From Clostridia bacterium (GTDB lineage: Bacteria; Bacillota; Clostridia; Christensenellales; Borkfalkiaceae): a stretch of DNA of 38,724 bases. The position numbers and the translations under genes are program-made. Location: assembly GCA_017468085.1 (NCBI GenBank), contig JAFUJR010000001.1, positions 1 through 38,724 on the forward strand, given 5' to 3'. Numbering within the stretch: position 1 is the first letter of the stretch; the number at the start of each line of letters is the position of its first letter. A model generated the notes under the pieces. The model saw only the letters and a list, made by a program, of their open reading frames with translations. It ran no database searches and was not told the origin of the DNA. Shown here in pieces: positions 7,596-26,385 of this stretch.

Positions 7596-8804
7596 ATGAA
7601 CGTAGTCGTAGGGCAGTCGGGTGGGCCGACGTCAGTGATCAACGCGAGCTTGGCAGGCGTATTCGTCGGCGCAAAACAAGCGGGTGCGAAAAAGATTTAC
7701 GGTATGCAGAACGGCATACAGGGATTTCTGCAAGAGAAATTTATTCGTTTGGACGAGGTGCTGACGGAGGAAAAAGTGGAACTTTTAAAACGCACGCCTG
7801 CGTGCTATCTCGGCAGCTGTCGTTATAAATTAAAGCCCGCGGAAAAGGACGGTTCGGATTATCAAAAAATCTTTGCGATTCTTGCAAAATACCAAATCGA
7901 TTGTTTTTTGTACATAGGCGGCAACGACAGTATGGATACGGTTGCAAAACTTTCTGCATACGGCAAAAAAATCGGCAGTCCCGTCCGCTTTGTCGGCGTG
8001 CCGAAAACGATTGACAACGATTTGATGATAACCGATCACACGCCCGGCTACGGCAGCGCGGCGAAGTTTGTGGCGACGGCGATGAAGGAGCTCGTTTGCG
8101 ATTCGACCATTTACGATTTGTATTCGGTAACCATTGTCGAGATCATGGGCAGAAACGCAGGCTGGCTGACTGCGGCAAGCGCGCTTGCCAAGGACGAAGA
8201 TTGCGAGGGCGTGGATATGATTTGTCTGCCCGAAACACCCTTTACGTTGGACGAATTCATCGGCAGAGTCGCCGCGCTTTTGAAAGAGAAAAAGTCGCTT
8301 GTAATCGCCGTTTCCGAGGGGGTAAAATTGCCCGATGGACGATACGTTTGCGAACTGGCAAGCGAGGCAAGCGAGGACGTGTTCGGACATAAAAATTTGA
8401 CGGGTACGGCAAGTTTTTTGGCGTCTGTTTGCGCCAAGGAATTGAAGACGAAAACGCGCGCTATCGAGCTTTCCACTTTGCAACGCTGCGCGGCGCATAT
8501 TGCCAGCTTGACGGACGTAAACGAAGCGTTTGAGGTAGGCAGGTACGCGTTGAACGCGGCTGTAAGCGGACAAAGCTGTGTGGCAGGGGTACTTATTCGC
8601 GACAATGATTCGCCGTATATTTGCAGAGCAGGCGTCGCGCCCGTGGACGAAATTGCAAATTTTGAAAAGACGGTGCCGCTTGGCTGGATCGACAGAGAAA
8701 ATTGGAGCTTGCGCGAACAGTTTTTAGTCTACGCAAGGCCGCTGATTATGGGCGAGCTTGCGCATACTTACGAAAACGGTTTGCCCAAACATATCAGTAA
8801 ATAA
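7596..8804 (+). CDS. pfp: Pyrophosphate-dependent 6-phosphofructokinase
   Basis: A 402-residue PfkA-superfamily enzyme that converts fructose 6-phosphate to fructose 1,6-bisphosphate. The start GQSGGPTSVINASL is the phosphoryl-donor loop. GGNDSMDT (108-115) carries Asp at the position that is Gly in ATP enzymes. VPKTIDNDL (135-143) carries Lys before the catalytic TIDND; this Asp/Lys pair is the known signature of PPi-dependent enzymes. MGRNAGWL is the substrate-binding MGR motif. PPi-PFKs are reversible and save ATP in fermenting anaerobes. GAGG precedes the ATG. The gene is second in an operon behind a small unknown gene and is followed by a strong terminator. One copy of the GGCAGGTACGCGTTGAA word lies in the coding region, at the codons for VGRYALNA. 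Confidence 0.95.
   Translation: MNVVVGQSGGPTSVINASLAGVFVGAKQAGAKKIYGMQNGIQGFLQEKFIRLDEVLTEEKVELLKRTPACYLGSCRYKLKPAEKDGSDYQKIFAILAKYQIDCFLYIGGNDSMDTVAKLSAYGKKIGSPVRFVGVPKTIDNDLMITDHTPGYGSAAKFVATAMKELVCDSTIYDLYSVTIVEIMGRNAGWLTAASALAKDEDCEGVDMICLPETPFTLDEFIGRVAALLKEKKSLVIAVSEGVKLPDGRYVCELASEASEDVFGHKNLTGTASFLASVCAKELKTKTRAIELSTLQRCAAHIASLTDVNEAFEVGRYALNAAVSGQSCVAGVLIRDNDSPYICRAGVAPVDEIANFEKTVPLGWIDRENWSLREQFLVYARPLIMGELAHTYENGLPKHISK
8538..8554 (+). repeat. Recurrent word, copy 1 (inside pfp)
   Basis: GGCAGGTACGCGTTGAA, an exact match to the word shared by seven sites in the window. It encodes part of GRYALN. Confidence 0.6.
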
Positions 8805-8823
8805 CTGCAAGAATGGTCATAAA

Positions 8824-8853
8824 AAAGAACGCTGATTTCGGCGTTCTTTTTCC
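8824..8853 (+). terminator. Terminator of the pfp operon
   Basis: The stem AAGAACGC/GCGTTCTT with an 8-nt loop is followed by TTTTCC. Confidence 0.92.
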
Positions 8854-8862
8854 GTTTTTCTA

Positions 8863-8907
8863 TTGAAAAATACGGATAAGTATGTTATAATAATAAAAAT
8901 ACTTATC
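8863..8907 (+). promoter_or_regulatory. Promoter of the helicase-nuclease gene, bracketed by an inverted repeat
   Basis: TTGAAA (8863-8868), 17 bp, TATAAT (8886-8891). The perfect 9-bp arms GATAAGTAT (8875-8883) and ATACTTATC (8899-8907) flank the -10 box and reach the predicted start of transcription, so a dimeric repressor bound there would occlude RNA polymerase. Confidence 0.78.
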
Positions 8908-8930
8908 AAATGGAAATAAGGGAAATTAAA

Positions 8931-11900
8931 ATGACGGACTACAACGGCACGGGAAACACGACTACGCGGAATAAATTGCGTGCGTGGGAAAATCTGCTTC
9001 TGGATACGGGCAAGCGAAATAATCTCGTCAATTTCAAAGACGCAAAGGGGAGCACGGTGGAAATCCTTGCCCCCGATTTTGCCACTCTTTTTTACAAAGC
9101 GGAACACGCCGCCGAGTTTGAGGTTTTCGACGTAGACGAGGGTAAAAAATCTAAGTCCTCGCAAACGGAGGAAGAACCCCAACCGCCTACCAAGGAAGAA
9201 GTTATTTCTTTATATGCAGACAAGCTGAAAAAGAAACAGATACTCGTATATAACCGTTCGGGACAGCCCATGCAGGCATTGAAAAACATTGGTAAAAAGG
9301 CGCAGACAGCGATAGAGGAAACGGGTATCAACATCGCGTATATGGCGTTTGGGTTTGTGCATTGGGCGGAAAAGGAAAATCCCACTCAAGTTTTGCGCGC
9401 GCCCGTACTGCTCGTGCCCGTCAGTATTCAAAACGAAAGCCCGCTTTCCCCCTATTATATCAAAGTTACGGACGACGTTTTGGTCAATCCCACTTTCTCG
9501 TTTAAGCTCAAACACGAGTACGGCGTTGCGTTGCCGGAATTTGACGAGGACGAAGGCTTGGACGGCTATTGGAGTAAACTTTCCGAAGTGCTTTTAAAGC
9601 TTCGTTGGTGGGTGGATAAAACGTGCAAAATCGGTTTGTTCTCTTTTCAAAAAATCAATATGTACGAGGATTTGAAAGAGAATGCCGAGCAGATATTACA
9701 AAACGAAAACGTCCGCTCGTTGCTTGGCGAGGCGAATGCCCGTTTTGAAACGGAACTCGTACCCGGCGCCGACCTTTTAGGGCTTTGCAACGTTGTGGAC
9801 GCCGATTCCAGCCAAGCGGAAGCCATTGCGCTTGCCAAGGCAGGGGGGAGTTTCGTTTTACAAGGCCCTCCCGGTACGGGCAAAAGTCAAACGATTACGA
9901 ATATGATTGCCGAATGTATCGGCGACGGAAAAAGGGTGCTCTTTGTGTCGGAAAAGCTCGCCGCGCTCAACGTTGTTTACGATAAGCTGAAAAAGGCGGG
10001 CTTGGAAGAATTTTGTTTGGAATTGCACAGCCATAAAGCAAACAAACGGCAGGTCATCGACGAGTTTTATCAAACTCTCCGTCTGCAAAAGAGCCGCGTT
10101 TCGGACAGCGCGGAAAAAATTCTGCGCGGTAAGCGCGAGGCGGTACAAAAGCTGGACGGATACGCAAACGAATTGCATCTCGTCCGTCCAATCATTCAAA
10201 AATCCCTTTATCAGCTTTTCGAGCTTTGCGCGAAATACAAAAATGCGCCCGATTTAGAGTTCGTGATAGAAAATCTTAATCAAAAAGGGGAAGCGTATAT
10301 CGAAAATGCGGAAACGGAGCTTGACCGTTACGCCGAGTTTACAAGTACTGTCGGCGCGGATTATCGGCAAAATCCTTGGTACGGATATTTCCCTGAGGAT
10401 ACGTCCTATCAATCCCTTTCACGGTTGAAAGCTGACCTTTTTGCGGCGGCTTCATATATACGAAAATTACAAGAACTTTGCCAAAAGGTGGCAGCCATGT
10501 ACGAGGCGAACGCAAATTCCGTCCAACACGCGCACGCCCTTGGCAAGCTGTTTACCCTTGCCAAAGACAGCCGCTTTATCACCCCTGCGCTGTTTAGCGT
10601 AAAGGAGGTGGAGCGCGCAATCTCGCTTGCGCAATCGCTTTCTTCGCTTGCAAAAGATCTGCTTTCCCGTAAGGCGGAATTAGATAAACGCTTCGACGGC
10701 GAAATTTATAAGCTGAACGCGCGTACGATGCATAAACAGCTTACAAGAGTATATTCAGGATTTTTCTCTCGCCTATTCAGCAAGGATTACCGCGATATTT
10801 TACGGAATATTCGTTTCTGTAAAAAGGACGGCAGAAAGCCCAAGTATGCCGAGGCGGTGCAAATTACCTCGGAGGTAGGCGAATACCAAGCGAAGGTGGA
10901 GGAATTCCTTTCTCTGCAAACGCAGACGGACGGGCTGTTCGGTAAGGCGTACGACGGCGTAAACACCAACTTTGAACGTTTACAAGCCGAGCTTGAAATT
11001 TTGCGTGAAATATGCTTGACGGGCGTTCCGTTCGGGCGCTTAGCGCGTATGAGCGCGGAGGAATTCTCCCTTAACGGCAGTACGTTTATGAATTTGGCGG
11101 GCGCGTTCGACAGCGCCGCTTATCTTGGCGGCGAGGCGGAATATCGGTTGGCTTCGGGCTTCGATACCACCGAATACGACCCTCGCTTAGCGTCGCTTGC
11201 CGATTTGGAAAGTAAGTACGAGGCGTGCAAACAGCGCATAGACGAAATAGAAAATTGGCGCGCATTCCAACTCAATTTGCGCGCGTTGAAAGATTTGGGC
11301 TTGCGTTCGTTTGTGGATAAGACGATAGAAAACGGGATTGTATCCGCCGACGTAACGGCGGCGTATTGTAAGGCGTTCTACCGTCAATGGGCGGATTGGG
11401 TTTTGCATCAATCGTCTGCGCTGATGGGCTTGTCCCGTATCCCGCACGACAATGCGGTACAGAGTTTTAAGGAAAAGGACGAGCTTCATTTTGAAATCAA
11501 TAAATCTAAAATTCGGGAGGCCCTCTCGGAAAAGCGCCCTGACCTTTCTATGGTGGCGCAGGGCAGCGCGATAGCCGTTCTTTTACGCGAGGCGGAGAAA
11601 AAACGCAAAAAGAAGAGTATACGCGATCTGCTTGCCGAAATCGGCGACCTTGCGCAGACGCTTAAACCTTGCTTCTTGATGTCCCCGTTAAGCGTTTCCA
11701 CTTACCTTTCCGCAAACGCGAAGTTCGACGTCGTCATTTTCGACGAGGCGTCGCAGATTTTTCCGCAGGACGCAGTGGGCGCGATTTATCGCGGAAAACA
11801 GCTTATCGTCGTGGGCGATTCCAAGCAGATGCCGCCCAGCAATTTCTTCACCAATACCCTTGAATTGGACGAGGATGAGGAACAGGACGACGTCGTCGAT

Positions 11901-13544
11901 TTCGAGTCCGTCCTCGATTTGTGCTCGGCTTCTTTCCCGCAACGCAGGTTGAAGTGGCATTATCGCAGTAAATTCGAGCCGCTTATCGCGTTTTCGAATA
12001 AGAATTTCTACGGCAACGATTTGGTTACCTTCCCGTCCGCCAAGGCTACGGGCGCGGATTTGGGCGTAGAGTTCGTTTTTGCGGGCGGTACGTTCGATAG
12101 ACGGAGCAAGACCAACCGCGTAGAGGCAGAGCTTATCACCGAAATGGTTTTCGAGCATTTTGAAAAATATCCCAGCCGCAGTTTGGGTGTGGTGGCGTTC
12201 AGTGTAGCGCAGCAAAATCTTATCGAACGGCTGATTTATAAACGCAGAAAAGACCTGCCCAACTTTGAGGAATTTTTCTCGCCCGAATCGGCAGAGCCTT
12301 TCTTTGTCAAAAACCTTGAAACGGTGCAAGGCGACGAGCGCGACGCGATTATTTTCAGCGTGGCTTACGCCAAGGACGCGCAGGGCAGACTGTTGATGAA
12401 CTTTGGTCCTATCAACCGCGAGGGGGGCGAGCGCCGTCTTAACGTTGCGTTTACGCGGGCGAAGTACAATATCAAGCTCGTTTCTTCCATGCGCGGCGCG
12501 GATATGGATATTTCGGGCGCAAAGTCGGAGGGCGTGCGCCTGCTCCGTGAATATTTAGACTATGCCGAAAACGGTCAGATTGCGTTGGAACGCGCCATCA
12601 ATTTAACGCGCGTGGACGAGGTAGATTCCGATTTCGAAGCGGACGTATTTGAATTCTTGCAACGCAACGGCTACGCCGTCGATACGCAGGTGGGCTGTTC
12701 GGGCTACCGTATCGATTTGGCGGTTAAGTACCCCGATTCGTCCGATTACGTGTTGGCGATAGAATGCGACGGCGCGAGCTATCATTCGTCTAAAACGGCG
12801 CGGGATAGGGATAGGCTTCGTCAATCCGTGCTCGAAAATATGGGCTGGAAATTTTACCGAATTTGGTCTACGGATTGGTTTAAATCCCCCGCGGAAGAGA
12901 AAAAGCGCTTGCTCGCGGCGGTGGAAAAAGCCTTTGCGGACGCGCCTAAACGCGCGGCGGGCGGGTCTATGCTAACAAGCGCGAAGCCTGTCGTCAGCTT
13001 TGACGAGGAGATGGAAGAACCGCCTTTCGCTTTTCCAATATACGAACGCGCGGACGATGAAACTATCATTTCGCGGAGCGGCGGAAGCCTTTCGCAAGCG
13101 ATAAAATCGATTGTGGAAATCGAAGCGCCCGTCAGCGAAGAATGGGTATTAAAACGGCTTATCCGTATGTTTAACAACCGCAAACAGCTCACCGTTGCCG
13201 TATGGCGGGAGTATGAGGAAAAGGTGAAAAATTTCCGTTGGAACGTTGTCAGAAAGGACGGATTTTTGTATAAAAAGGGGGGCGGCTCGCGTATGCTCCG
13301 CGTGCCTAAAGAGGGCGATATCCCGCGCGAGATCAAGTATATCGAGTTGCAAGAGCTGGCGAACGGCTTACGCGCGTTGCTTTCGCAAAACGTAACGGCG
13401 GAAAAGAACGGACTTTTCAGACTGTTGGCTAAGCAGCTCGGCTTTACGAGAGCGGGCGACGCCGCGCAGGAACGTATGGAAGCGGCGCTTAAATTGCTCG
13501 GCGACGAGGTGGAAACGGACGGGGATTTTCTTTCTCTTAAATAA
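8931..13544 (+). CDS. DUF4011-type superfamily 1 helicase fused to a PD-(D/E)XK nuclease
   Basis: A 1537-residue multidomain protein. The N-terminus (RAWENLLLDTGKRNNLVNF) is the DUF4011 signature. Walker A is GPPGTGKS (312-319); the Walker B-like VIFDEASQIFPQD has D938-E939. VVGDSKQMPPSNFF and the late VQGDERDAIIFS and NREGGERRLNVAFTRAKYN are SF1B (Dna2/Upf1-like) motifs. A long charged region (about 390-850) separates the two halves of the helicase. A PD-(D/E)XK nuclease follows (about 1240-1335), with D1262 in GYRIDLAV and E1278 in LAIECDGASYH. The end (about 1380-1537) resembles the DUF3320 helical domain. Such proteins act on DNA, and several relatives sit in defence islands; that role is inference here. 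I start at 8931 (AAGGG upstream) because the in-frame ATG at 8910 has no ribosome site. It is a single-gene unit with operator-like DNA in its promoter. Confidence 0.9.
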   Translation: MTDYNGTGNTTTRNKLRAWENLLLDTGKRNNLVNFKDAKGSTVEILAPDFATLFYKAEHAAEFEVFDVDEGKKSKSSQTEEEPQPPTKEEVISLYADKLKKKQILVYNRSGQPMQALKNIGKKAQTAIEETGINIAYMAFGFVHWAEKENPTQVLRAPVLLVPVSIQNESPLSPYYIKVTDDVLVNPTFSFKLKHEYGVALPEFDEDEGLDGYWSKLSEVLLKLRWWVDKTCKIGLFSFQKINMYEDLKENAEQILQNENVRSLLGEANARFETELVPGADLLGLCNVVDADSSQAEAIALAKAGGSFVLQGPPGTGKSQTITNMIAECIGDGKRVLFVSEKLAALNVVYDKLKKAGLEEFCLELHSHKANKRQVIDEFYQTLRLQKSRVSDSAEKILRGKREAVQKLDGYANELHLVRPIIQKSLYQLFELCAKYKNAPDLEFVIENLNQKGEAYIENAETELDRYAEFTSTVGADYRQNPWYGYFPEDTSYQSLSRLKADLFAAASYIRKLQELCQKVAAMYEANANSVQHAHALGKLFTLAKDSRFITPALFSVKEVERAISLAQSLSSLAKDLLSRKAELDKRFDGEIYKLNARTMHKQLTRVYSGFFSRLFSKDYRDILRNIRFCKKDGRKPKYAEAVQITSEVGEYQAKVEEFLSLQTQTDGLFGKAYDGVNTNFERLQAELEILREICLTGVPFGRLARMSAEEFSLNGSTFMNLAGAFDSAAYLGGEAEYRLASGFDTTEYDPRLASLADLESKYEACKQRIDEIENWRAFQLNLRALKDLGLRSFVDKTIENGIVSADVTAAYCKAFYRQWADWVLHQSSALMGLSRIPHDNAVQSFKEKDELHFEINKSKIREALSEKRPDLSMVAQGSAIAVLLREAEKKRKKKSIRDLLAEIGDLAQTLKPCFLMSPLSVSTYLSANAKFDVVIFDEASQIFPQDAVGAIYRGKQLIVVGDSKQMPPSNFFTNTLELDEDEEQDDVVDFESVLDLCSASFPQRRLKWHYRSKFEPLIAFSNKNFYGNDLVTFPSAKATGADLGVEFVFAGGTFDRRSKTNRVEAELITEMVFEHFEKYPSRSLGVVAFSVAQQNLIERLIYKRRKDLPNFEEFFSPESAEPFFVKNLETVQGDERDAIIFSVAYAKDAQGRLLMNFGPINREGGERRLNVAFTRAKYNIKLVSSMRGADMDISGAKSEGVRLLREYLDYAENGQIALERAINLTRVDEVDSDFEADVFEFLQRNGYAVDTQVGCSGYRIDLAVKYPDSSDYVLAIECDGASYHSSKTARDRDRLRQSVLENMGWKFYRIWSTDWFKSPAEEKKRLLAAVEKAFADAPKRAAGGSMLTSAKPVVSFDEEMEEPPFAFPIYERADDETIISRSGGSLSQAIKSIVEIEAPVSEEWVLKRLIRMFNNRKQLTVAVWREYEEKVKNFRWNVVRKDGFLYKKGGGSRMLRVPKEGDIPREIKYIELQELANGLRALLSQNVTAEKNGLFRLLAKQLGFTRAGDAAQERMEAALKLLGDEVETDGDFLSLK

Positions 13545-13553
13545 CGGATTAAA

Positions 13554-13582
13554 AAAACACCTGCTAAGCGGCAGGTGTTTTC
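13554..13582 (+). terminator. Terminator of the helicase-nuclease gene
   Basis: AAACACCTGC pairs perfectly with GCAGGTGTTT around a 6-nt loop, with A-tract and T-tract flanks. Confidence 0.92.
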
Positions 13583-13619
13583 TACGGATAAAGCGGCGTT
13601 TTTTGGGCAAATTATATTT

Positions 13620-14807
13620 ATGGAAAGATTATTGCAAGACGCAAAAAAACTGCAAAAGGATTTGGTAGAACACCGCCGTTATTTGCACCAAAACGCAGAG
13701 GTGGGTTTTGACTTACCCAAGACGGCGGAGTACGTAAAAACACAGCTAAAAAATATGGGATTTACCCCCAAAGAGGTGGGCAGGTATGCGTTGACGGCGG
13801 AGATCGGCAAGGGTAAGCCTGCCTTTTTACTCCGTGCGGATATGGACGGGTTGCCGATTGAGGAGCGGGCAAAAGAGCCGTTCGCTTGTAAATCGGGGCA
13901 TATGCACGCTTGCGGACACGATATGCACGCGGCAATGCTGCTCGGCGTGGCGAAGCTGTTAAAAGAGAGAGAAAAAGAATTAAAAGGACGGGTCAGGCTT
14001 CTTTTTCAACCCGCCGAAGAGCTTTTAGAAGGCGCGAAAACCGCCGTGGAAAACGGCGTATTGAAAAACCCGAAAGTTGACGGCGCAATGATGCTGCACG
14101 TATTGACGGGCGTTCCGCTCGATACGGGTTGCGTGGTCGTTGCGCACGGCGTAAGCGCGCCTGCCGCCGATTATTTTACGGTGGAGGTGCAGGGGAAGGG
14201 TTGCCACGGCTCTACCCCTTGGAAAGGGGTGGACGCGTCCGCTGTAGCGGCAAAAATTTTACTTGGTTTTCAGGAAATTACGGCGAAAGAGGTATCGTTC
14301 ACCACGCCGTCCGTCCTTTCCGTGGGAAGTATTTCAGCGGGAGAGGTAGGGAACGTAATTGCGGATAAGGCGGCGCTCAAAGGCACGCTTCGTACCTTTG
14401 ACGAGGGCGTACGCGCTTTTATCAAAACGCGGATAGAGGAAATTGCTAAATACACGGCGAAAGCCTTTCGAGCGAAAGCAAAAGTAAAATTCGGCGGCGG
14501 TTGCCCGTCCTTATTAAACGACGAAAAGCTGTCCGCACTTGCTTTGCAAACCGCCCAAGAATTGCTCGGCGAAAAGGCGTTTTCCTCTGTGGAGATGGGG
14601 AACAGCGAAGAAAAGGGGGGCTCGGAGGATTTTGCGTATATCAGCCGCGAAGTGCCGTCCGTGATGCTTGCTCTGTCGGCTGGGAACAGCAAAGAGGGGT
14701 ATGCATATCCCTTGCACCACCCCAAGGCAAGGTTTGACGAACGCGCGCTGTATATCGGCAGCGCGTTATACGCCGCCGTCGCGTTAAAATTTTTAGGAAA
14801 CGGATAA
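13620..14807 (+). CDS. M20 family amidohydrolase (hippurate hydrolase/N-acyl amino acid deacylase type)
   Basis: A 395-residue M20D-type metalloamidase. Metal-binding motifs are in order: LLRADMDGLPIEE, HACGHDMHAAMLLGVAKLL, LLFQPAEELLEGA (catalytic and metal Glu pair), MMLHVLTG, GGSEDFAY, and the C-terminal HHPKARFDE. HGSTPW belongs to the dimerisation lid. The family removes acyl groups from N-acyl amino acids, or acetyl from N-acetyl-diaminopimelate; motifs alone cannot separate these. I start at ATG 13620 (MERLLQDAKKLQKDLVEHRR), as in family members; an upstream GTG at 13575 lies in the preceding terminator. Only 37 bp separate that terminator from the ATG and no good ribosome site is visible, so expression may depend on partial readthrough. 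A copy of the recurrent word lies at 13779. Confidence 0.92.
   Translation: MERLLQDAKKLQKDLVEHRRYLHQNAEVGFDLPKTAEYVKTQLKNMGFTPKEVGRYALTAEIGKGKPAFLLRADMDGLPIEERAKEPFACKSGHMHACGHDMHAAMLLGVAKLLKEREKELKGRVRLLFQPAEELLEGAKTAVENGVLKNPKVDGAMMLHVLTGVPLDTGCVVVAHGVSAPAADYFTVEVQGKGCHGSTPWKGVDASAVAAKILLGFQEITAKEVSFTTPSVLSVGSISAGEVGNVIADKAALKGTLRTFDEGVRAFIKTRIEEIAKYTAKAFRAKAKVKFGGGCPSLLNDEKLSALALQTAQELLGEKAFSSVEMGNSEEKGGSEDFAYISREVPSVMLALSAGNSKEGYAYPLHHPKARFDERALYIGSALYAAVALKFLGNG
13779..13795 (+). repeat. Recurrent word, copy 2 (inside the M20 gene)
   Basis: GGCAGGTATGCGTTGAC differs from the consensus at two positions. It encodes GRYALT, the same peptide core as copy 1. Confidence 0.5.
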
Positions 14808-14810: not shown

Positions 14811-14848
14811 GGGGCAGATATGCGTTCAACGCATACCTGCCCTAATTA
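14811..14848. terminator. Convergent terminator built from the recurrent word
   Basis: GGGCAGATATGCG and CGCATACCTGCCC form a 13-bp stem with one A-C mismatch and a short TTCAA loop, between the converging M20 and DUF4097 genes. The T-tract (TAATTATTTG) is poor. Read leftward, the second arm with its loop is exactly a copy of the recurrent word. Confidence 0.7.
14825..14841 (-). repeat. Recurrent word, copy 3 (in the convergent terminator)
   Basis: Minus strand GGCAGGTATGCGTTGAA. The partner arm (GGGCAGATATGCG on the plus strand) is a degenerate inverted copy, so this site is a near-palindromic pair. Confidence 0.65.
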
Positions 14849-14866: not shown

Positions 14867-15922
14867 TTATTTTTCCGTGAATTTCGGTTGAAAAATTCCC
14901 TTAATATTTCCCGTGCCCGTATAAATTTTTAACGTTTTCGTTTTGGTAGGGTCGGGATAATCGTACAAATTGTTGTTTCCCGTATTCGTGTGCGCCTGTA
15001 TAGAATAGTCGCCGATTTCGCCTACAAGGGTAATGATTATATTGCCGGTATCTGCGGAAAAGTTCAAGGTTATGAAATCCAATAAGGACGTGCCAATCGA
15101 TTTTATATTCCCCGTATCCGTTTGCACCGTAAGGTTCGTACCCGAAAGATTGCCAAGGTGTACGTTGCCCGTATCCGTTTCAATCTTTAAAGTGGGGGAA
15201 GAAAGGGTGTGCAAAATGCTTACGTTACCCGTATCCGTTGTGATTTCTGCAGTATTCATTACAGAGCCGTGGCCGTCCAACGTAACGTTACCCGTATCCA
15301 CTTCAATAAACAAGCTATCCGAGGTAAAGGCATTCAAGAATATATTTCCCGTATCCGTAGAAAGGTCGATTTTGCCGTCGCAGACAATCGTTCCGCCAAG
15401 GTCTATCGTGCCCGTATCCGTTTCGATTTTTAAACTTTCCAAGGTAGCGTAACCGCTCATTCGAACGTCGCCCGTATCCGTTTTCAAATCCAACGCATAC
15501 GCATAGGCTTTGGGCATATATACGTTTACGCAAGGATTTTTGCCAACGTAAAAAGAAGTATGGACAAAGGAAATTCTTTCCTGCTCTATTTTAAGTGCGT
15601 TGTTTTCTTCCGTAACGGTGGTTTTGGTTAACAGCTTTCCTTTTTTACTATACGTTTCTGGGTATTCAACGCGTACCTGGGTGGTGCTTTCGTCAAAATA
15701 TACTTTAATATTGCTGACGTCAAAATCCAACGTAAGGCTTGTAACCTTATGCCTTTCCGTATATTCCTGATACACGTAATCCACGGTGTTCATCACGGTG
15801 AAATCCCAATCTGCCGCAGCCATAACAATCGTAAACACGCCTCCGCCGACGAGGGTCAATCCGCCGAATACGATAAGGAGAATCATTAAAATTTTGTTTG
15901 CGATAGCTTTCGTGATTTTCAT
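14867..15922 (-). CDS. Membrane-anchored DUF4097 beta-solenoid protein with ten TDTGN repeats
   Basis: A 351-residue protein with one N-terminal membrane segment (about residues 9-35, ILMILLIVFGGLTLVGGGVF) and a DUF4097-type right-handed beta-helix outside or inside it. From about residue 140 the chain has ten ~20-21-residue coils, each with a TDTGN-like turn (KTDTGDV, ETDTGTI, STDTGNI, EVDTGNV, TTDTGNV, ETDTGNV, QTDTGNI, SADTGNI, HTNTGNN, YTGTGNI). It is third in the padR-DUF1700-DUF4097 operon, a common Bacillota arrangement in envelope-stress-type regulation; its start overlaps the stop of the DUF1700 gene by 4 bp. Its biochemical role is unknown; it may be a sensor or scaffold at the membrane. 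At DNA level the repeats look like a ~60-bp periodic array. Confidence 0.88.
   Translation of the reverse strand: MKITKAIANKILMILLIVFGGLTLVGGGVFTIVMAAADWDFTVMNTVDYVYQEYTERHKVTSLTLDFDVSNIKVYFDESTTQVRVEYPETYSKKGKLLTKTTVTEENNALKIEQERISFVHTSFYVGKNPCVNVYMPKAYAYALDLKTDTGDVRMSGYATLESLKIETDTGTIDLGGTIVCDGKIDLSTDTGNIFLNAFTSDSLFIEVDTGNVTLDGHGSVMNTAEITTDTGNVSILHTLSSPTLKIETDTGNVHLGNLSGTNLTVQTDTGNIKSIGTSLLDFITLNFSADTGNIIITLVGEIGDYSIQAHTNTGNNNLYDYPDPTKTKTLKIYTGTGNIKGIFQPKFTEK
15665..15681 (-). repeat. Recurrent word, copy 4 (inside the DUF4097 gene)
   Basis: Minus strand CAGGTACGCGTTGAA preceded by CC rather than GG. It lies on the coding strand and encodes part of TQVRVEYP, unrelated to the GRYAL peptide of copies 1 and 2. 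Confidence 0.55.
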
Positions 15923-16503: not shown

Positions 16504-16814
16504 AACCCGCCTCCTTGGGTGATAAAATCGCTTATTTTCTTAAACTCGTACATGGTATCCACAAATTCCTGGATTTTCGCCTTGCCAACCTCTGTTATAC
16601 GGAAATATTTACGTAGCCTGCCGTTGTAGGCTTCCGTCCTCGTCGTTACCGAGCCGCTCGCCTCTAACCGTTTCAAAATAGGATACAGCGTCGACTCGGA
16701 TATTTCTATATAGGGTGCGATATCCGAAATGATTTTATAGCCGTACGATTCTTCTTTCCGTATTGCCGCAAGCACGCATACTTCCAGTAACCCCTTTTTT
16801 AACTGTGCGTCCAT
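16500..16814 (-). CDS. PadR-family transcriptional regulator
   Basis: A 104-residue winged-helix protein of the short PadR subfamily 2. MDAQLKKGLLEVCVLAAIRKEESYGYKI is the canonical PadR start (LLxxxVLxxLxxxExYGYxI). It is followed by SESTLYPILKRLEASGSV, the recognition helix, and TRTEAYNGRLRKYFRITEVGK, the wing. It most likely represses its own operon, as is usual for padR-DUF1700-DUF4097 units. AGGAGG precedes the ATG. The promoter is close to consensus. No clear ATGT-n-ACAT operator is visible, although the spacer contains the palindrome ATGCAT. Confidence 0.93.
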   Translation of the reverse strand: MDAQLKKGLLEVCVLAAIRKEESYGYKIISDIAPYIEISESTLYPILKRLEASGSVTTRTEAYNGRLRKYFRITEVGKAKIQEFVDTMYEFKKISDFITQGGGL

Positions 16815-18565: not shown

Positions 18566-19408
18566 ATGTATCAAATCGTAGCAAAACAAGCTTTAAATCC
18601 CACGGTAACGAAAATGGAAATCCTCGCGCCGTTTGTGGCGAAAAAGGCGTTGCCCGGGCAATTTATTATTCTGCGCGTTACGGACGACGGCGAGCGTATT
18701 CCGCTCACGATTGCCGATTACGATAGAGAAAAGGGAACGATTACCATCATTTTTCAAATCGTTGGAGGCACGACGGAGTTGCTCAACCATAAAAACGCGG
18801 GAGAATTTATCCCCGATTTCGTCGGGCCTTTGGGCAAGCCCACCCATACGGCAGGGCTCAAAAAGGTGTGCGTGGTCGGCGGCGGCGTGGGCTGTGCAAT
18901 CGCTCTGCCCGTAGCCAAGGCTTTGCACGCGCAGGGCGCGGAGGTTACGTCGATTATCGGGTTTAGAAACAAAGACCTCGTCATTTTAGAGGAGGAATTT
19001 AAGGCTTGCTCGGATAATTTTTATATGATGACGGACGACGGCTCTTACGGCGGCCAAGGCAACGTTTGCGTGCCCTTAAAAGAGATTTTGGAAAGCGGAG
19101 AACGCTTTGACGAGGTCATCACCATCGGCCCGCTTATTATGATGAAATTCGTTTGCGCGACGACCAAGGAATACGGTGTTAAGACGATTGCGAGTATGAA
19201 TCCCATCATGATAGACGGCACGGGCATGTGCGGCGGCTGTCGTTTGACGGTTGGCGGAAAAATGAAATTCGCTTGCGTGGACGGCCCCGAATTTGACGGA
19301 CACGAAATCGATTTCGACGAGGCGATGAGCCGTTCGCGCGCGTATACCGATTTTGAAACGCGCGAAAGAGAGGCGGCTTGCAACCTCTTTAAAAAGGAGG
19401 TGGAATAA
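18566..19408 (+). CDS. nfnA: NAD(P)-binding small subunit of NADH-dependent ferredoxin:NADP+ oxidoreductase (NfnA/SudB type)
   Basis: A 280-residue ferredoxin-NADP reductase-like flavoprotein. The N-terminal beta-barrel binds FAD (ERIPLTIADYDREKGTITII, with the RxPLT motif at 44-48). VCVVGGGVGCAIALPVAKAL (101-120) is the dinucleotide-binding loop. The [2Fe-2S] site is C222, C225 and C237 with D217; in structurally known NfnA proteins the fourth ligand is an aspartate. The C-terminus (about 250-280) is the linker found in this family. It pairs with the large subunit coded 1 bp downstream to make NfnAB, which couples NADH and reduced ferredoxin to NADP+ reduction by electron bifurcation; the same protein pair is also annotated as sulfide dehydrogenase. 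Cytoplasmic. Confidence 0.93.
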   Translation: MYQIVAKQALNPTVTKMEILAPFVAKKALPGQFIILRVTDDGERIPLTIADYDREKGTITIIFQIVGGTTELLNHKNAGEFIPDFVGPLGKPTHTAGLKKVCVVGGGVGCAIALPVAKALHAQGAEVTSIIGFRNKDLVILEEEFKACSDNFYMMTDDGSYGGQGNVCVPLKEILESGERFDEVITIGPLIMMKFVCATTKEYGVKTIASMNPIMIDGTGMCGGCRLTVGGKMKFACVDGPEFDGHEIDFDEAMSRSRAYTDFETREREAACNLFKKEVE

Positions 19409-19409
19409 T

Positions 19410-20834
19410 ATGCCCCCGAAATTTAACATGAACCCCTTAAAAAATCCCATGCCGGCGCAAGACCCTAAAATCCGTAACGGAAACTTCGACGAGGTGGCGC
19501 TCGGTTACACGGCGGAGATGGCAATCGACGAGGCAAAGCGCTGTATCGGCTGTAAAAACAGACCCTGCGTTGCCGCTTGTCCCGTCAACATCAAAATCCC
19601 CGAATTTATTGCTAAGGTCGCGGAAGGGGATTTTGAGGCGGCTTATCAAATTATTGCGGAAGATTCTTCCTTGCCCGCCGTGTGCGGCAGAGTTTGCCCC
19701 CAAGAAACGCAGTGCGAAGGCAAATGTACGCGCGGCGTTAAGGCGGGGTGCGAATCGGTTGCAATCGGGCGTTTGGAGCGGTTCGTTGCCGACTGGCACA
19801 ATGCAAAAAATGATATTCAACGCGTACCTGCTCCCTCCAACGGGCATAAAGTGGCGGTTGTGGGAAGCGGACCTGCGGGCTTGACCTGTGCGGGCGATTT
19901 GGCGAAGCTCGGCTATGAAGTTACCGTTTTCGAGGCGTTCCACGTTGCGGGCGGCGTGCTCGTGTACGGCATTCCCGAATTCCGTCTGCCCAAAGCTATC
20001 GTACAACGCGAGGTGGAGGGCTTAAAGGCGCTTGGCGTGAAGATAGAAACGAACATGGTCATCGGGCGCGTCATTACGATTGAGGAATTAAAGACGGAGT
20101 ACGGCTTCGAGGCGGTATTTATCGGCACGGGCGCAGGCTTGCCTAAGTTTATGGGTATCCCCGGGGAAGCGCTGAAAGGCGTGTATTCCGCAAACGAGTT
20201 TTTGACCCGTTCCAATTTGATGAAAGCATATAAAGCGAACAGCCGCACCCCCATACAGCACGGTAAGTGCGTGGCAGTCGTAGGCGGCGGCAACGTAGCG
20301 ATGGACGCGGCGCGCACGGCGAAGCGTTTGGGCGCGGAAGTGCATATCATCTACCGCCGCGGCGAGGAGGAATTGCCCGCCCGCCGTGAGGAAATCGAAC
20401 ACGCCAAGGAAGAGGGTATCATTTTTGACCTGCTCACCAACCCCACCCGTATTTTGGCTACGCCGACGGACAACCCTCGCGACCCGTCCTACGGTTGGGT
20501 GAACGGTATCGAGTGCGTGAGAATGGAGCTTGGCGAGCCTGACGAGAGCGGCAGACGCGCGCCTAAGGCTGTGGCAGGGAGCGAATTTACCCTTCCCGTC
20601 GATTGCGTGATTATGTCGCTCGGCACTTCGCCCAATCCGTTGATTAAAGATACCACTCCCGATTTACAGACCCTGCGCCGCGGTGAAATTGCGGTGGACG
20701 AGGTAGGCAAAACGTCTATTGAGGGCGTGTACTGCGGTGGCGACGCGGCAACGGGCGCGGCTACCGTTATCAAAGCGATGGGCGCAGGTAAAGTGGCGGC
20801 GCAAGCCATTCACGAATATATTCAAAGCAAATAA
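19410..20834 (+). CDS. nfnB: Large subunit of NfnAB (GltA/SudA type flavin oxidoreductase)
   Basis: A 474-residue protein like the small subunit of glutamate synthase. Two [4Fe-4S] clusters are in the N-terminal domain: RCIGCKNRPCVAACPVNIKI (about 44-63) and VCGRVCPQETQCEGKC (about 90-107). The FAD-binding VVGSGPAGLTCAGDLAKLGY follows, then a second Rossmann motif VVGGGNVAMDAARTAKRLG for NADP(H), and VYCGGDAATGAATVIKAMGAG near the end. The start at 19410 is set by AGGAGGTGG just upstream, inside the end of nfnA; a longer frame from 19353 overlaps nfnA. No separate large GltB-type glutamate synthase gene is next door, which supports the Nfn role over glutamate synthase. The minus strand carries a copy of the recurrent word at 19816. 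A terminator follows. Confidence 0.94.
   Translation: MPPKFNMNPLKNPMPAQDPKIRNGNFDEVALGYTAEMAIDEAKRCIGCKNRPCVAACPVNIKIPEFIAKVAEGDFEAAYQIIAEDSSLPAVCGRVCPQETQCEGKCTRGVKAGCESVAIGRLERFVADWHNAKNDIQRVPAPSNGHKVAVVGSGPAGLTCAGDLAKLGYEVTVFEAFHVAGGVLVYGIPEFRLPKAIVQREVEGLKALGVKIETNMVIGRVITIEELKTEYGFEAVFIGTGAGLPKFMGIPGEALKGVYSANEFLTRSNLMKAYKANSRTPIQHGKCVAVVGGGNVAMDAARTAKRLGAEVHIIYRRGEEELPARREEIEHAKEEGIIFDLLTNPTRILATPTDNPRDPSYGWVNGIECVRMELGEPDESGRRAPKAVAGSEFTLPVDCVIMSLGTSPNPLIKDTTPDLQTLRRGEIAVDEVGKTSIEGVYCGGDAATGAATVIKAMGAGKVAAQAIHEYIQSK
19816..19832 (-). repeat. Recurrent word, copy 5 (inside nfnB, opposite the coding strand)
   Basis: Minus strand AGCAGGTACGCGTTGAA. The coding strand reads IQRVPAP, so the word is not explained by a common peptide. 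Confidence 0.6.
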
Positions 20835-20967: not shown

Positions 20968-23862
20968 TTGCATACGCAAACCACGTTTTGTAACGTAAAA
21001 TGTCCTCATTGCGACAGAACGCTGAGGGCGGTAACCATACCCGGCGTGCACCTTTGTAACGGGTGTGCGGGCAGGTTTACTCTGCGCATACGCAAAAAGG
21101 CGGAACTTGCGCCAGAAAGCAACAAAAAGCAAGCCTTGTCGGCTGGCGCAGTATTCCGCAAAATCGGAAAGGCGTGTTGGCGGTTTTTGAAAAAGAATTG
21201 GGCGTATTTCCTTGCGCCGTTCCTTGTTGGGCTGTTGTATTTATTCGCGCTTTGGCAGGGGGACGTATTCCCGTTTGGGAAATATACGGCGGCAAGCTAC
21301 GATCTTTCCGCGCAGATTTGCCCGTTTATCGAACACCTTTTCGACGTTATGCGAGGAAAATCTACCTTGACTTACACCTATGCCTTGGGCGGCGGTATGG
21401 ACGTCGTGGGTACGTTTTTATATTTCTTCGTCAGTCCGTTCAGCTTTATTTTCTTGCTGTTTAGGGACGGACGAGTGGCGCACGCGTGCAGTATCGTTAT
21501 GCTGTTAAAGCTGATGGCAATCGCCTTTGCCGGTACTTGGTTTGCCAAAAAATTATTTAAAGAAATTCCCGATTATCTTTGCGTGGCGGTGGGCGTCGTC
21601 TACACCTATTGCGGTTATACCTTTGTCGCCAACACTTATATCAACTGGCTAGATTTCTTAATTTACCTGCCTTTCTGCGCGGGCGCGTTTAAGCATTTTG
21701 TCAAAACGGATAATTTTTGGCCTTTCGCGCTTTTGATGTCGGCGTGCATTTACACCTGCTTTTCCATTGCTTGTTTCTCGATGTTCGTCGTGTTCCCCAC
21801 TTTAATTCTTTACGGCGTTTTGTGCGTGGAAAAAGGTAAGAAAAATAAGTTCATCGCCTATCTGTGCTTATCGTTTGTCGTTGCGGTGCTTACTGCATTA
21901 CCCGTTTTACTGCCCGCGCTTGCCTCGTATATGCGCAGTGGCAGAGGAGGCGGACTTTTCGATAATTTCTGGTTTGGGTATTCGTTTTCTTCCCAAACGG
22001 GGGAAATTATCGGGTTTGATTCTTCTTTCTATATCAGTAGTGTAGAACTTGCGTTCTATCGCAAATTATCGTATATTATCGCGGACTCCGTATTCCTTGC
22101 CTTGACGTTGATTTGGTTCTGCCGTAAGGGATTAAAGGACCGCTTTGCAAAGTTTATGCTTATCGCAGGTATTTTTACGATGGTACCCGTTCTTGTCGAC
22201 GAGGCGACGCTCTTGATGAATATGGGCTCGTATATGTCCTATGCGCTTCGTTTCGGGTTTTTAAACGCGCTCTATTTCTTGGGCGGCGCCTGCCTTTGTT
22301 TAGAAAATATCTGTTTTAAACGCGCTTGCACTTACGACGGCGCGCCCTTGTGGGGGCGGGTCGAAAAGGAAGACGCTGTTTTCGATAAAAATGAACGGAA
22401 AACACAAAACAAACTACCCATGTCCGCGTTGAAAGTTAAAAAATCAGCGCCTATCAGCAAAAAAACGTACGTTGTATGGCTGGTGATCTGTGTGGTTGTC
22501 GGCGCGCTTGCAACGGCGTTCCTTATCTATTACGTCAACAATTATAGAAGTTTCCTGCTCCTTTTTGCAAAAGATAAAGAATCAACGGCAAATGCGTTGA
22601 AGGGATTTGCGTCCAGTTACGCGCATTCCTTGGGCGGTTTGGACGTTATCGTCCCGTTGTTTATCGTTGCGTTGGCTGTGGTCGGACTCGGTTGTATACT
22701 TATCTATAAAAAACGTATCAGCCCGCGCCTGCTTTCCTTTATCTTAATTGCCGTGGTCGGTACGCAGGTTATGTTTTATAACGACGCGCTCGTGTTCGGA
22801 AACCGTTCCGCGCAGCATATCGAGCTTGCCGATTATCAGGCGCTTTGTCAGGAATTGGACGAGCGGGAGGACGGCTATTTCCGTGTAAAGGATTACGGCG
22901 ATGAAATGACGGCGTGCGCGCCTTTGACGGGAAATACGAACGCTTTCAGCGTTTTCTCGTCGATGCTCGACGCAGACAATTTGCCCACCTATCAGCTTTT
23001 TGCCTATAAGGGCAACGGAAAAAATAGCTTTAAGAGTTCGCACAACACTAGCAAAGGCAACCGCGCGGAGGAATTTGGCGATTCCTTCTTGGGCTATAAA
23101 TACGTGATGGTTCCTAAGTCCAAAGTCAATGAAGTGGACAAAAAATCTTATCTTAAAAAGGTGATGACGACGGACGCGGAGGGCAACGAGGTGCAGCTTT
23201 CCAACGGCAGCTTTTTCGTCTATGAAAATCAATACGTATTCCCGATGGGCTACACCCTCAAAAGCGGTGATTTTGCCTTCGTTTCACCCAATGAGGCAAA
23301 CGCGACCTACCGCAAGCAAAACCAAGCGGCGCTCTACGAGTTTTTACGCGGTGAAAATTTGATGGAATTTAGAAAAAATACCCTTGTTACCGCCTCCGAC
23401 ACGGCAGAGCTTTCCGAATATTTATGGAGCAGAGCCGCCGACGTCGAGGTGGGCGCAGGAAAAATCACCGCCAAGGTTACGGCGGAGGAAGGGGAGTTCC
23501 TTTTCTTGAATTTCGTGGCGTCCAAAGGATATTCGGTAACGGTGAACGGCAAAAAGGCGGAGTTAGTCGAAAACGATATAAAATTCTTGTCCGTAGCCTT
23601 AGAGACAGGGGAAAACGAGGTAGTGTTCACTTATTCTTCGCCTTACGTAAAATACGTATGGATAGGCGCAGGCGCGACGGTTGTTGCGCTTTGCGCGGTG
23701 GCGTTCGTAACGAAGAAAACCAAGCTCATGGATAAGTGCGCCCCCGTCATTGCGTGGACGGGTATAGGGCTTGCCGTTGCGGTTGTTGCGGTGTTCATGG
23801 TCTACCCCACGGGCGCTTTCGCGGCGAAACTCGTCGAAATATTAAAACTCGCCATCGCTTAA
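20968..23862 (+). CDS. YfhO-family polytopic membrane protein with N-terminal zinc ribbon
   Basis: A 964-residue membrane protein starting at TTG; AAAGGAGG 7 bp upstream fixes this start. Residues 1-45 hold a zinc ribbon (C8, CPHC at about 13-16, CNGC at about 31-34). The first membrane helix begins at about 78, and some 13 hydrophobic segments follow. YLFALWQGDVFPFGKYTAAS and the later SYDLSAQICPFIEHL and SFIFLLFR regions match YfhO (GT-C-like fold; B. subtilis YfhO and its relatives glycosylate cell-envelope polymers). An extracytoplasmic region of about 220 residues rich in beta-strands (about 600-900) precedes the last two helices. The role is probably transfer of sugar from a polyprenyl donor. 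The fused zinc ribbon is unusual. It is a single-gene unit ended by a long hairpin terminator. Confidence 0.87.
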   Translation: MHTQTTFCNVKCPHCDRTLRAVTIPGVHLCNGCAGRFTLRIRKKAELAPESNKKQALSAGAVFRKIGKACWRFLKKNWAYFLAPFLVGLLYLFALWQGDVFPFGKYTAASYDLSAQICPFIEHLFDVMRGKSTLTYTYALGGGMDVVGTFLYFFVSPFSFIFLLFRDGRVAHACSIVMLLKLMAIAFAGTWFAKKLFKEIPDYLCVAVGVVYTYCGYTFVANTYINWLDFLIYLPFCAGAFKHFVKTDNFWPFALLMSACIYTCFSIACFSMFVVFPTLILYGVLCVEKGKKNKFIAYLCLSFVVAVLTALPVLLPALASYMRSGRGGGLFDNFWFGYSFSSQTGEIIGFDSSFYISSVELAFYRKLSYIIADSVFLALTLIWFCRKGLKDRFAKFMLIAGIFTMVPVLVDEATLLMNMGSYMSYALRFGFLNALYFLGGACLCLENICFKRACTYDGAPLWGRVEKEDAVFDKNERKTQNKLPMSALKVKKSAPISKKTYVVWLVICVVVGALATAFLIYYVNNYRSFLLLFAKDKESTANALKGFASSYAHSLGGLDVIVPLFIVALAVVGLGCILIYKKRISPRLLSFILIAVVGTQVMFYNDALVFGNRSAQHIELADYQALCQELDEREDGYFRVKDYGDEMTACAPLTGNTNAFSVFSSMLDADNLPTYQLFAYKGNGKNSFKSSHNTSKGNRAEEFGDSFLGYKYVMVPKSKVNEVDKKSYLKKVMTTDAEGNEVQLSNGSFFVYENQYVFPMGYTLKSGDFAFVSPNEANATYRKQNQAALYEFLRGENLMEFRKNTLVTASDTAELSEYLWSRAADVEVGAGKITAKVTAEEGEFLFLNFVASKGYSVTVNGKKAELVENDIKFLSVALETGENEVVFTYSSPYVKYVWIGAGATVVALCAVAFVTKKTKLMDKCAPVIAWTGIGLAVAVVAVFMVYPTGAFAAKLVEILKLAIA

Positions 23863-24065: not shown

Positions 24066-24692
24066 ATGACTCTGCATAAATTATTTTCTGTTTGCTTGCA
24101 TATCCCGTATTCCCAAGTCGGGAAGTCTGCCAATTACGCCGTCAAAAGGGAAAACGGTACGCTGTACATATTTTTTCAAGGCTCGGACGGAAAAAACGAC
24201 TGGAAAAACAACCTGGATTTTCCCGTAAAGCCCTATAAGCGTATGGGAAAAACGATATGGTTTGCGCATCGCGGATTTTTACGGACTTGGAAAGAGCTGG
24301 AGCCCTTTCTTTATGAAAAGATTGTCGATAGGACAGTGGAAAAGGTGGTGATTGCAGGCTATTCCCACGGTGGCGCTTTGGCTATGCTCTGCCACGAGTA
24401 CGTTTGGTATCATCGCCCCGATTTGCGCGCGACGACGGAGGGCTACGGTTTTGGCGCGCCGCGCGTCTTTTGGGGCGCACAAACCGCAGAGTTGAAATCG
24501 CGTTGGGAAAAATTCACCGTTATCCGTAACTTAGACGATCTCGTTACGCACCTGCCCCCTGCGTTTTTGGGTTTTTCGCACGTCGGCGAATTGTTGAACG
24601 TCGGAAAAAAGGGGAAATATTCGTCTATCCAAGCGCACTTTCCCCAAAATATTTTAACCGAATTGCAAGCATATGATAATAAAACCGATTGA
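24066..24692 (+). CDS. Class 3 lipase-like alpha/beta hydrolase
   Basis: A 208-residue fungal-lipase-type (class 3) hydrolase. The nucleophile elbow is GYSHGGALAMLCHEYVW (GxSxG). NLDDLVTHLPP is the family's catalytic Asp segment. SIQAHFPQNI near the end supplies the His. ENGTLYIFFQGSDGKNDWKNNLDFPV is the usual oxyanion-side strand (family F-R/Q-G-T/S). The protein has no signal peptide, so it should act in the cytoplasm on a lipid or ester; the substrate is unknown. I start at 24066, where AGGAGGG lies 5 bp upstream; a longer reading from 24006 has no ribosome site and covers the promoter. It is a single-gene unit with its own terminator. Confidence 0.88.
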   Translation: MTLHKLFSVCLHIPYSQVGKSANYAVKRENGTLYIFFQGSDGKNDWKNNLDFPVKPYKRMGKTIWFAHRGFLRTWKELEPFLYEKIVDRTVEKVVIAGYSHGGALAMLCHEYVWYHRPDLRATTEGYGFGAPRVFWGAQTAELKSRWEKFTVIRNLDDLVTHLPPAFLGFSHVGELLNVGKKGKYSSIQAHFPQNILTELQAYDNKTD

Positions 24693-25190: not shown

Positions 25191-25192
25191 CT

Positions 25193-25269: not shown

Positions 25270-25303
25270 ATATATTGCGCTATTTCTCAAAACAGCATAA
25301 CTT

Positions 25304-25558: not shown

Positions 25559-25577
25559 ATAAGAAAAGAGGAAAATT

Positions 25578-25988
25578 ATGAAATTTTACGAGATTACAAA
25601 CGAGGATAAAGAACTTATAAAAATTGCCTTAAAAACTTTGGCGGAAAACTTTGACGACGGCGTGTATCGCCATACCGTCGGCGCGGCGTTGCGCTGTAAA
25701 AACGGTAAGGTGTACAGCGGCGTAAATTGCGACGGAATTCACGGCTCGTGCGCGGAATACGTGGCGATGGGCATAGCAATTTCGGCGGGGGAACGGGAGT
25801 TTGATACCATCGTTGCCGTGCATGAAAAGGCGGTAAATTGTTTACTTTCACCTTGCGGAAACTGCCGTCAAATGTTGGTGGAATATTGCCCTGATATCAA
25901 GGTGATTTTAAACGATGACGAAGGGAATATGCGTAAGGTTTCTGCAAGGGAGTTGTTGCCGTTCGCATGGAAACCCGTAATCTGCTAA
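25578..25988 (+). CDS. Cytidine/blasticidin-S deaminase-like zinc hydrolase
   Basis: A 136-residue deaminase of the homotetrameric cytidine deaminase fold. The zinc and proton-shuttle residues are C58-A-E60 (GSCAEYVAMG) and C93/C96 (SPCGNCRQML), the three-Cys site of Cdd and blasticidin-S deaminase. The end ILNDDEGNMRKVSARELLPFAW, together with LSPCGNCRQML..CPDIKVIL, follows blasticidin-S deaminase (RELLP) more closely than the housekeeping CDAs. The reaction is hydrolytic removal of an amino group from a cytosine-type ring. Pyrimidine salvage is the default expectation; a role against nucleoside antibiotics is possible. GAGG precedes the ATG. It may be co-transcribed with the 93-residue gene 72 bp downstream. 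Confidence 0.9.
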   Translation: MKFYEITNEDKELIKIALKTLAENFDDGVYRHTVGAALRCKNGKVYSGVNCDGIHGSCAEYVAMGIAISAGEREFDTIVAVHEKAVNCLLSPCGNCRQMLVEYCPDIKVILNDDEGNMRKVSARELLPFAWKPVIC

Positions 25989-26004
25989 AAACACGTTTGA
26001 CGGG

Positions 26005-26021
26005 GGTAGGTACGCGTTGAA
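26005..26021 (+). repeat. Recurrent word, copy 6 (intergenic)
   Basis: GGTAGGTACGCGTTGAA, preceded by GGG, between the deaminase gene and the 93-residue gene. One base (T for C) differs from the consensus. Confidence 0.6.
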
Positions 26022-26060
26022 TGCGTTATTTGACGAAAAAAGCGAGCGAGGATAAGGGGT

Positions 26061-26342
26061 ATGGAAAATAGAAAGTGGCTGTTCGTGGGGGTGAGCCCTT
26101 ACCCTTACCGCGGTAAAGGATATTGGTATATAGACGAAAGCGGTACAACGGCGCCGCGTACTTACGTTTGGGCGCGTATGGGTAGACGCGATAGAGAACA
26201 GATCGTGTACGTAGATTGCGTGCGTTGGTGTGATGAGGGAAATGTGCCTTATCCGCCCGATAAAGCAAAGCGAATCCTTCGTCAAACCACCTTGGAGGAA
26301 GCGGAAAAGGCTGAGGAAAGCTGGCGTGAAATTTTGGATTAA
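26061..26342 (+). CDS. Small unknown protein rich in Tyr, Trp and Arg
   Basis: A 93-residue protein I do not recognise. It opens with beta-strand-like MENRKWLFVGVSPYPYRGKG, has a central basic part (WARMGRRDREQIVYVDCVRW) and ends in an acidic helix (TLEEAEKAEESWREIL). No signal peptide, membrane helix or known motif is visible. The composition matches neighbouring native genes, and GAGGATAAGGGG precedes the ATG, so it is probably a real gene. It follows the deaminase gene with no terminator in between. The short length, a single beta unit and a C-terminal helix would fit a small nucleic-acid- or protein-binding domain, which is only a guess. Confidence 0.6.
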   Translation: MENRKWLFVGVSPYPYRGKGYWYIDESGTTAPRTYVWARMGRRDREQIVYVDCVRWCDEGNVPYPPDKAKRILRQTTLEEAEKAEESWREILD

Positions 26343-26368
26343 ACGGCGTTTTTTAGCGAAAGATAGGG

Positions 26369-26385
26369 GGCAGGTACGCGTTGAA
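26369..26385 (+). repeat. Recurrent word, copy 7 (intergenic)
   Basis: GGCAGGTACGCGTTGAA, an exact match to the consensus, preceded by GGG, 27 bp after the 93-residue gene. Confidence 0.65.

Follow-up and report, generated by a model that had tools for sequence, protein, structure and literature searches.

Why does a word of about 17 bp recur along a short piece of a bacterial chromosome, inside genes and between them and on both strands? The question is raised by a window of 38,724 nucleotides, the whole stretch of DNA analysed here, which comes from a Clostridia bacterium of the family Borkfalkiaceae (assembly GCA_017468085.1, contig JAFUJR010000001.1, positions 1 to 38,724). A first-pass annotation made from the letters alone had noticed seven copies and offered three readings: a DNA uptake signal, a segregation or repair motif, or a repetitive extragenic palindrome (REP) family. 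The present analysis confirmed that the repeated word is real and more extensive than had been stated. In our judgment the chances are about evenly balanced that the word, rather than being a chance repeat, is the binding site of a putative DNA-bending protein that organises the chromosome.

Abundance and full extent of the word

Eight sites match the 17-mer with at most three mismatches in the window, compared with a mean of 0.09 in shuffled windows, and none of 100 shuffles reached eight. The seven copies noticed at the outset (8538+, 13779+, 14825-, 15665-, 19816-, 26005+, 26369+) lie where they had been placed, with 0-2 mismatches. The eighth (14813+, three mismatches) is the opposite hairpin arm to 14825-. 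Folding of this pair is strong (z -5.5 and -6.2), and on the minus strand CCCCUUUUU comes next, a terminator-like arrangement such as the annotation had described for one copy. A weight matrix finds 17 sites in the window. The 13 with a score of at least 14, which include all seven earlier copies, are as follows (ORF, open reading frame).

8538 to 8554, plus strand: word with no mismatch, in the phosphofructokinase ORF at 7596-8804; score 28.9
10494 to 10510, plus strand: variant GCCATGTACGAGGCGAA, in the ORF at 8910-13544, missed by the first-pass annotation; score 29.0
13779 to 13795, plus strand: word with two mismatches, in the amidohydrolase ORF at 13575-14807; score 31.2
14813 to 14829, plus strand: word with three mismatches, left arm of the hairpin; score 19.8
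14825 to 14841, minus strand: word with one mismatch, right arm of the hairpin, terminator-like on the minus strand; score 30.8
15665 to 15681, minus strand: word with two mismatches, on the sense strand of the LiaG-like ORF at 14867-15922; score 29.8
16540 to 16556, minus strand: variant ACCATGTACGAGTTTAA; score 18.3
19816 to 19832, minus strand: word with one mismatch, antisense inside the ORF at 19353-20834; score 28.4
21850 to 21866, minus strand: weak variant; score 17.2
22417 to 22433, plus strand: variant CCCATGTCCGCGTTGAA, resembling the dialect of a second genus (see below); score 27.1
24540 to 24556, minus strand: variant; score 21.6
26005 to 26021, plus strand: word with one mismatch, 17 bp past the ORF at 25578-25988, in a doubtful short antisense ORF; score 31.4
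26369 to 26385, plus strand: word with no mismatch, upstream of the tRNA at 26530, in a doubtful short ORF; score 35.3

The seven earlier copies had been divided into four genic and three intergenic ones. Four do lie in long ORFs and 14825 is intergenic; an intergenic position for 26005 and 26369 is plausible but not certain, both being inside automatically called short ORFs (378 and 246 bp) whose reality is doubtful.

The source genome of the window (G000; 2.06 Mb in 62 contigs, 81.67% complete, 5.44% contaminated) contains 24 exact copies of the 15-mer core, compared with none of the reversed control, and 235 sites with at most three mismatches to the 17-mer, compared with eight. An iterated matrix gives 243 sites in 839 kb and 10 in the reversed sequence. 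Genome-wide totals are somewhat inflated by a redundancy of the assembly: the contig regions C23:1-80000 and C29:13115-93114 run in opposite orientation and match at 99.997% over 80 kb. Without the duplicate, 208 sites in 759 kb remain. In coding sequence, 55 sites occur in 658 predicted genes (694,692 bp, duplicate removed), whereas 20 rounds of synonymous-codon shuffling within genes averaged 9.2 sites and never exceeded 14. The count is thus well above that of a codon-matched model, the comparison on which the first-pass annotation had said its proposal would stand or fall.

A logo built from 87 sites extends the word to an upstream A-tract, AAAnGnnGGGGCAGGTAYGCGTTGAA, with a full length of about 27 bp and an asymmetric core. 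Most sites are inside genes, where several reading frames are used, and 71 of the 243 are intergenic compared with 22.4 expected (duplicate contig included). The word is absent from a 30-kb defence-like stretch, and site density varies between contigs (69 per Mb in C25, up to about 440 per Mb). In C20 the sites are spaced more regularly than chance would have them, in C23 barely so, and in C60 and C34 they are not. Most sites are single: among the 208, only eight pairs lie within 200 bp of each other, four of them inverted, and some sites form inverted pairs at a 12-bp offset. Same-strand pairs 31-32 bp apart recur across genomes (G000:C1:27782/27813, G002:C4:128181/128212, G000:C60:106908/106940).

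Distribution and dialects

Across 301 genomes of the family, CAGGTAYGCGTTGAA occurs at least once in 48 of the 53 genomes of the same genus, with up to 54 copies, and in three of 248 genomes of other genera, once each. The genus members lacking it are G020, G060, G102, G108 and G132. Among named genomes at least 115 stretches bear the word; of the 80 matches listed, 76 belong to metagenome-assembled Clostridia or Clostridiales, with the gut of deer, sheep and goats as a frequent source, and the four in unrelated bacteria are probably due to chance. The exact 17-mer was found in two stretches of a viral collection. Within the genus, G049 yields a logo (24 sites; five in the reversed control) similar to that of G000, and G095 has 209 sites compared with two in the control.

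A second genus has a dialect of its own. De novo word counting in its member G009 returned CGGACATGGTA as the top word, and the sites there read AAAcG..CATGTCCGCGAT, with the same distance from A-tract to core as in the G000 word; thus the core differs (CATGTCCGCGAT) and the AAAnG spacing is retained. A masked matrix gave 127 matches in G009 compared with two or three in the reversed sequence; it replaced a first iteration (10,153 hits) that had drifted onto codon periodicity. The shared pattern AAAnG-N7-CAnGTnCGCG was counted in 297 genomes of the order. It occurs 62 times in G000 compared with zero in the control, is high in five of nine second-genus genomes (G009 51, G084 27, G066 13, G092 12, G042 7; controls 0-2), and is found at most five times elsewhere. 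Top scores in de novo counting were 28.7 in G000, 11.9 in G049 and 9.7 in G009, and samples of G060, G006 and G007 (400, 107 and 86 kb) gave no word judged comparable, with top scores of 7.8, 7.1 and 7.4. A second dialect in G060, for which a 12-mer excess of 155 versus 33 per Mb had spoken, was not upheld by a matrix scan (five versus one at a score of at least 14).

Turnover of sites between species

For conservation counts, G000 sites were aligned only to unselected stretches of relatives; an earlier all-against-all comparison was left out because many of its loci had been fetched for carrying the word. Between G000 and G049, two of 24 site alignments are gapped within the word. Identity averages 0.775 within the word; the flanks average 0.694 (p 0.04) and random windows 0.745. 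An identity of at least 14/17 is kept by 13 of the 24 sites and by 42.5% of random windows. Two weaker comparisons add to this: nine alignments with the word-less G060 (word 0.58, flanks 0.65, six of nine gapped) and six with G009 (word 0.66, flanks 0.70, two of six gapped). From these alignments, sites appear to turn over by substitution, mostly without gaps. An origin of the sites by insertion, or as REP elements, was set aside on the alignments.

Phased A/T content around the sites

The sequence surrounding the word is patterned as well. A/T content oscillates around the sites with a period of about 11.6 bp (11.4-11.7; local periods 11.3-12.0). Controls were AAAnG-centred positions, equal in number to the sites, in 200 draws. 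Within ±95 bp the amplitude is 0.093/0.096 in G000 compared with at most 0.026 in controls, 0.072/0.081 in G049 compared with at most 0.043, and 0.056/0.047 in G009 compared with at most 0.036/0.029; for G095 the values are 0.101/0.113 and at most 0.037. Sites in genes (144) and between them (63) both show the phasing, which is stronger where the site score is high and is also seen in a subset of 106 sites picked for at most two mismatches to the 17-mer. When 361 sites from three species are pooled, the amplitude declines outward from 0.11 near the core and at 95-150 bp is still 0.038/0.036, compared with at most 0.023 in 200 control draws. Beyond 110 bp, G000 is marginally above control (0.027 and 0.026 versus 0.023), likewise at -250 to -180.

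In layout, a central region of about 40 bp is flanked by periodic arms from about ±20, and picked maxima mirror each other outward, those beyond ±100 rising little above the mean. Three mirror centres, at +0.5, -5.5 and +6.5 from word position 3, describe the pattern about as well as each other, so that no single dyad can be assigned and the centre is uncertain by half a period. By the textbook plectoneme relation, a period of 11.6 bp would presumably correspond to a superhelical density near -0.095. A period of about 11 bp is commonly taken to reflect the pitch of DNA under negative supercoiling (PMC4132750; for a contrary view, PMC7537859), and curved DNA is described as pinning plectonemes (PMC6301789).

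Scarcity at the presumed terminus and strand orientation

In regions taken from GC skew to be the replication terminus, and delimited after site densities had been seen, four sites were observed compared with 43 expected in G000, three compared with 28.5 in G049, and none compared with 21 in G095. The three regions are partly homologous to each other. The scarcity extends to the core genes of the presumed terminus, and in G095 the sign change of the skew is clear.

Strand orientation was asked about from the start, in relation to replication. Among the genic sites of G000, 113 of 172 are on the sense strand of the gene and 116 of 172 on the leading strand; 63 of 71 intergenic sites are on the leading strand, where strand composition alone predicts 82%. 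No strand bias was seen in G009, in which skew is too weak for safe strand assignment. Strand polarity as the function of the word, of the kind known from Chi and the FtsK-orienting polar sequences (KOPS), was set aside, the intergenic excess in G000 being largely predicted by composition.

A candidate chromosome-organising site

Taken together, we infer protein binding, DNA bending, the identity of the site-poor region with the terminus, and a role in chromosome organisation. A putative sequence-specific protein that bends or wraps DNA would bind the core of about 27 bp. On both sides, the A/T tracts phased at about 11.6 bp may curve negatively supercoiled DNA around this core over 200-300 bp; a supercoil tip would then lie at the word or close to it. 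Much of the chromosome would keep a site about every 2-5 kb, with the terminus left largely free of them. Because of this exclusion, the putative protein would tell the terminus from the rest of the chromosome, in the way that SlmA and Noc sites mark it for the timing of division; sites of both are described as under-represented in the terminus region, Ter (PMC4726725). Of the three readings offered at the outset, a segregation or organisation motif thus fits best, through a mechanism that we infer. A further claim is possible but more doubtful: that the genome encodes the positions of supercoil tips and the word displayed there, through up to about 300 bp phased to plectoneme pitch, and leaves the terminus near-blank so that it may be treated differently in segregation or division.

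Several observations weigh against this reading, beginning with the delimitation of the terminus regions after the fact. In G000 the sign change of the skew is confined to the final 10 kb of the stretch used, in G049 it does not change sign and merely nears zero at the contig end, and at dnaA in G000 (C60:130,820) there is no skew flip. A scan for dif-like sites with an approximate query matched no more than 19-20 of 28 positions. Sites are thin or missing elsewhere too, in C17 of G000 (171 per Mb) and in two of 17 other pieces of G095, both low in GC. Beyond 110 bp, the A/T amplitude of G049 alone or G009 alone is not above controls, and the sites are conserved between species only slightly more than background, which a drive process could also give. 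The palindromic Noc and SlmA sites, about 70 and 24-52 in number (PMC4726725), differ from an asymmetric word with hundreds of copies. Nor was a word-reading protein found: the gene searches, whose family counts come from incomplete assemblies, yielded no lead to one from topoisomerase copy number, ParB or one phage portal family. Of the 57 genus genomes, three have ParB_N above cut-off and 17 have it at E 0.001 or better, and its occurrence shows no evident connection with that of the word; its absence or sub-threshold score in the other 54 suggests, as far as such searches can tell, a diverged or absent ParABS system.

Alternative explanations

The most serious competitor, which we nevertheless consider unlikely, is a DNA uptake sequence: word-bearing DNA would be preferentially taken up and recombined, and the word would accumulate by molecular drive. 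Hundreds of dispersed copies on both strands, dialects in two genera, mostly gap-free turnover and paired hairpin copies would all be expected of it, as would the word-free defence-like stretch of 30 kb and the mere two viral-collection stretches with the exact 17-mer. The genic lean to the sense strand (113 of 172) is in keeping with the preference of uptake sequences for one orientation (PMC2346458), and the uptake signal sequences (USS) of Pasteurellaceae are likewise flanked by AT-rich segments and change by point mutation (PMC7811141). The competence genes give a divided answer. ComEC (PF03772) is present in all 57 genus genomes, whereas the pilus platform T2SSF (PF00482) has no match in 54 of them, including G000, G049, G095 and G080. 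It is matched in three, one of which, G266, bears the word. None of the word-bearing second-genus genomes G009, G084, G066, G092 and G042 has it above cut-off (G066 has a sub-threshold match), and of 14 other family genomes only the word-less G099 does. Scarcity in core genes of the presumed terminus is not expected of uptake, and A/T phasing over 200-300 bp far exceeds the length of USS flanks. The uptake reading is weakened because the platform is mostly not found and the terminus scarcity is not predicted. The ComEC of G000 (C20:56805-58484, L059) has 559 aa, shows only the Competence domain at E 1e-5, and adjoins a DNA polymerase III delta gene.

It is quite unlikely that the sites are strong gyrase sites, at which gyrase would bind the core and wrap the phased arms, so that the sites set supercoiling outside the terminus. 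The central region of about 40 bp with arms from ±20 does resemble the motif of Escherichia coli gyrase, with its centre from -16 to 19 and periodic flanks (PMC6379681), and gyrase preferences are described as species-specific with arms periodic at 10-11 bp (PMC12324340). The E. coli flanks, however, have a period of 10.75 bp and end near ±65 (PMC6379681), compared with about 11.6 bp and beyond ±95 here, and the gyrase motif is degenerate, with no fixed word. The number of type IIA topoisomerase A subunits is also the same with or without the word, two in 22 of 24 genomes (G232 has one match place and G207 three).

A packaging word of a gene transfer agent that imports through ComEC is highly improbable. 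Some gene transfer agents do import through ComEC, which is present here without the pilus platform, and biased packaging could drive accumulation of the word; among portal and terminase families, however, the search was limited to the HK97-type Phage_portal (PF04860), which is found in only four of 57 genus genomes, including G000. Scarcely credible is a mobile or REP-like repeat family, or a set of terminator hairpins, copied around the genome, since most sites are single (eight pairs within 200 bp among 208), only two of 24 G000-G049 alignments are gapped, and sites are mostly genic in several reading frames, even though some inverted pairs at a 12-bp offset, the intergenic excess (71 of 243 versus 22.4) and the gapped alignments with G060 (six of nine) would suit it.

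Relation to known systems

Dispersed chromosomal words of known function are few. The present word resembles the DNA uptake sequences (DUS) of Neisseriaceae and the USS of Pasteurellaceae in its hundreds of dispersed copies, on both strands, in and between genes, and in its dialects, point mutation and inverted pairs; copy number, dialects and turnover of uptake sequences are described in similar terms (PMC3630211, PMC7811141). It differs from them in the pilus platform gene not found in most word-bearing genomes, the longer phased flanks, the scarcity at the presumed terminus and the unrelated host bacteria. Like the sites of Noc (Noc-binding sites, NBS) and SlmA (SlmA-binding sites, SBS) it is dispersed, and its scarcity in the skew-defined regions would match their under-representation in the terminus if those regions are the terminus; unlike in that system, canonical ParB mostly scores below cut-off (no search was aimed at SlmA). 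Like the E. coli gyrase motif it has a central element and mirrored, helically phased AT/GC arms from about ±20 bp, and it is set apart by its period of about 11.6 bp in place of 10.75 bp, its reach beyond ±95 rather than about ±65 bp, and a fixed rather than degenerate word. KOPS and Chi are about 8 bp or less, and KOPS rise at the terminus. The word is over-represented and strand-biased as they are, whereas its intergenic strand bias is mostly predicted by composition and its density drops at the presumed terminus. We place it, with the mechanism put forward above, among chromosome-organising sites.

Strong preference for particular sequences in DNA uptake has been described for species of two families (PMC7811141), and among the titles and abstract openings listed on uptake sequences or natural transformation in Clostridia, Firmicutes, gram-positives or Christensenellales none mentions such a word. 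If the word served DNA uptake, it would extend the list beyond Neisseriaceae and Pasteurellaceae to Clostridia. If not, an architectural site that is scarce at the terminus and carries a long bending code would make supercoil organisation readable from sequence and its reader protein searchable. Dialects and patchy presence within two genera provide a natural comparison for finding that protein.

Other features of the window

At Rfam gathering thresholds the window contains nothing beyond two tRNAs. The ORF at 8910-13544 encodes a protein of 1544 aa with a strong match to the NCBIfam anti-phage model ProA, below the cut-off (1262 versus 1500 bits).
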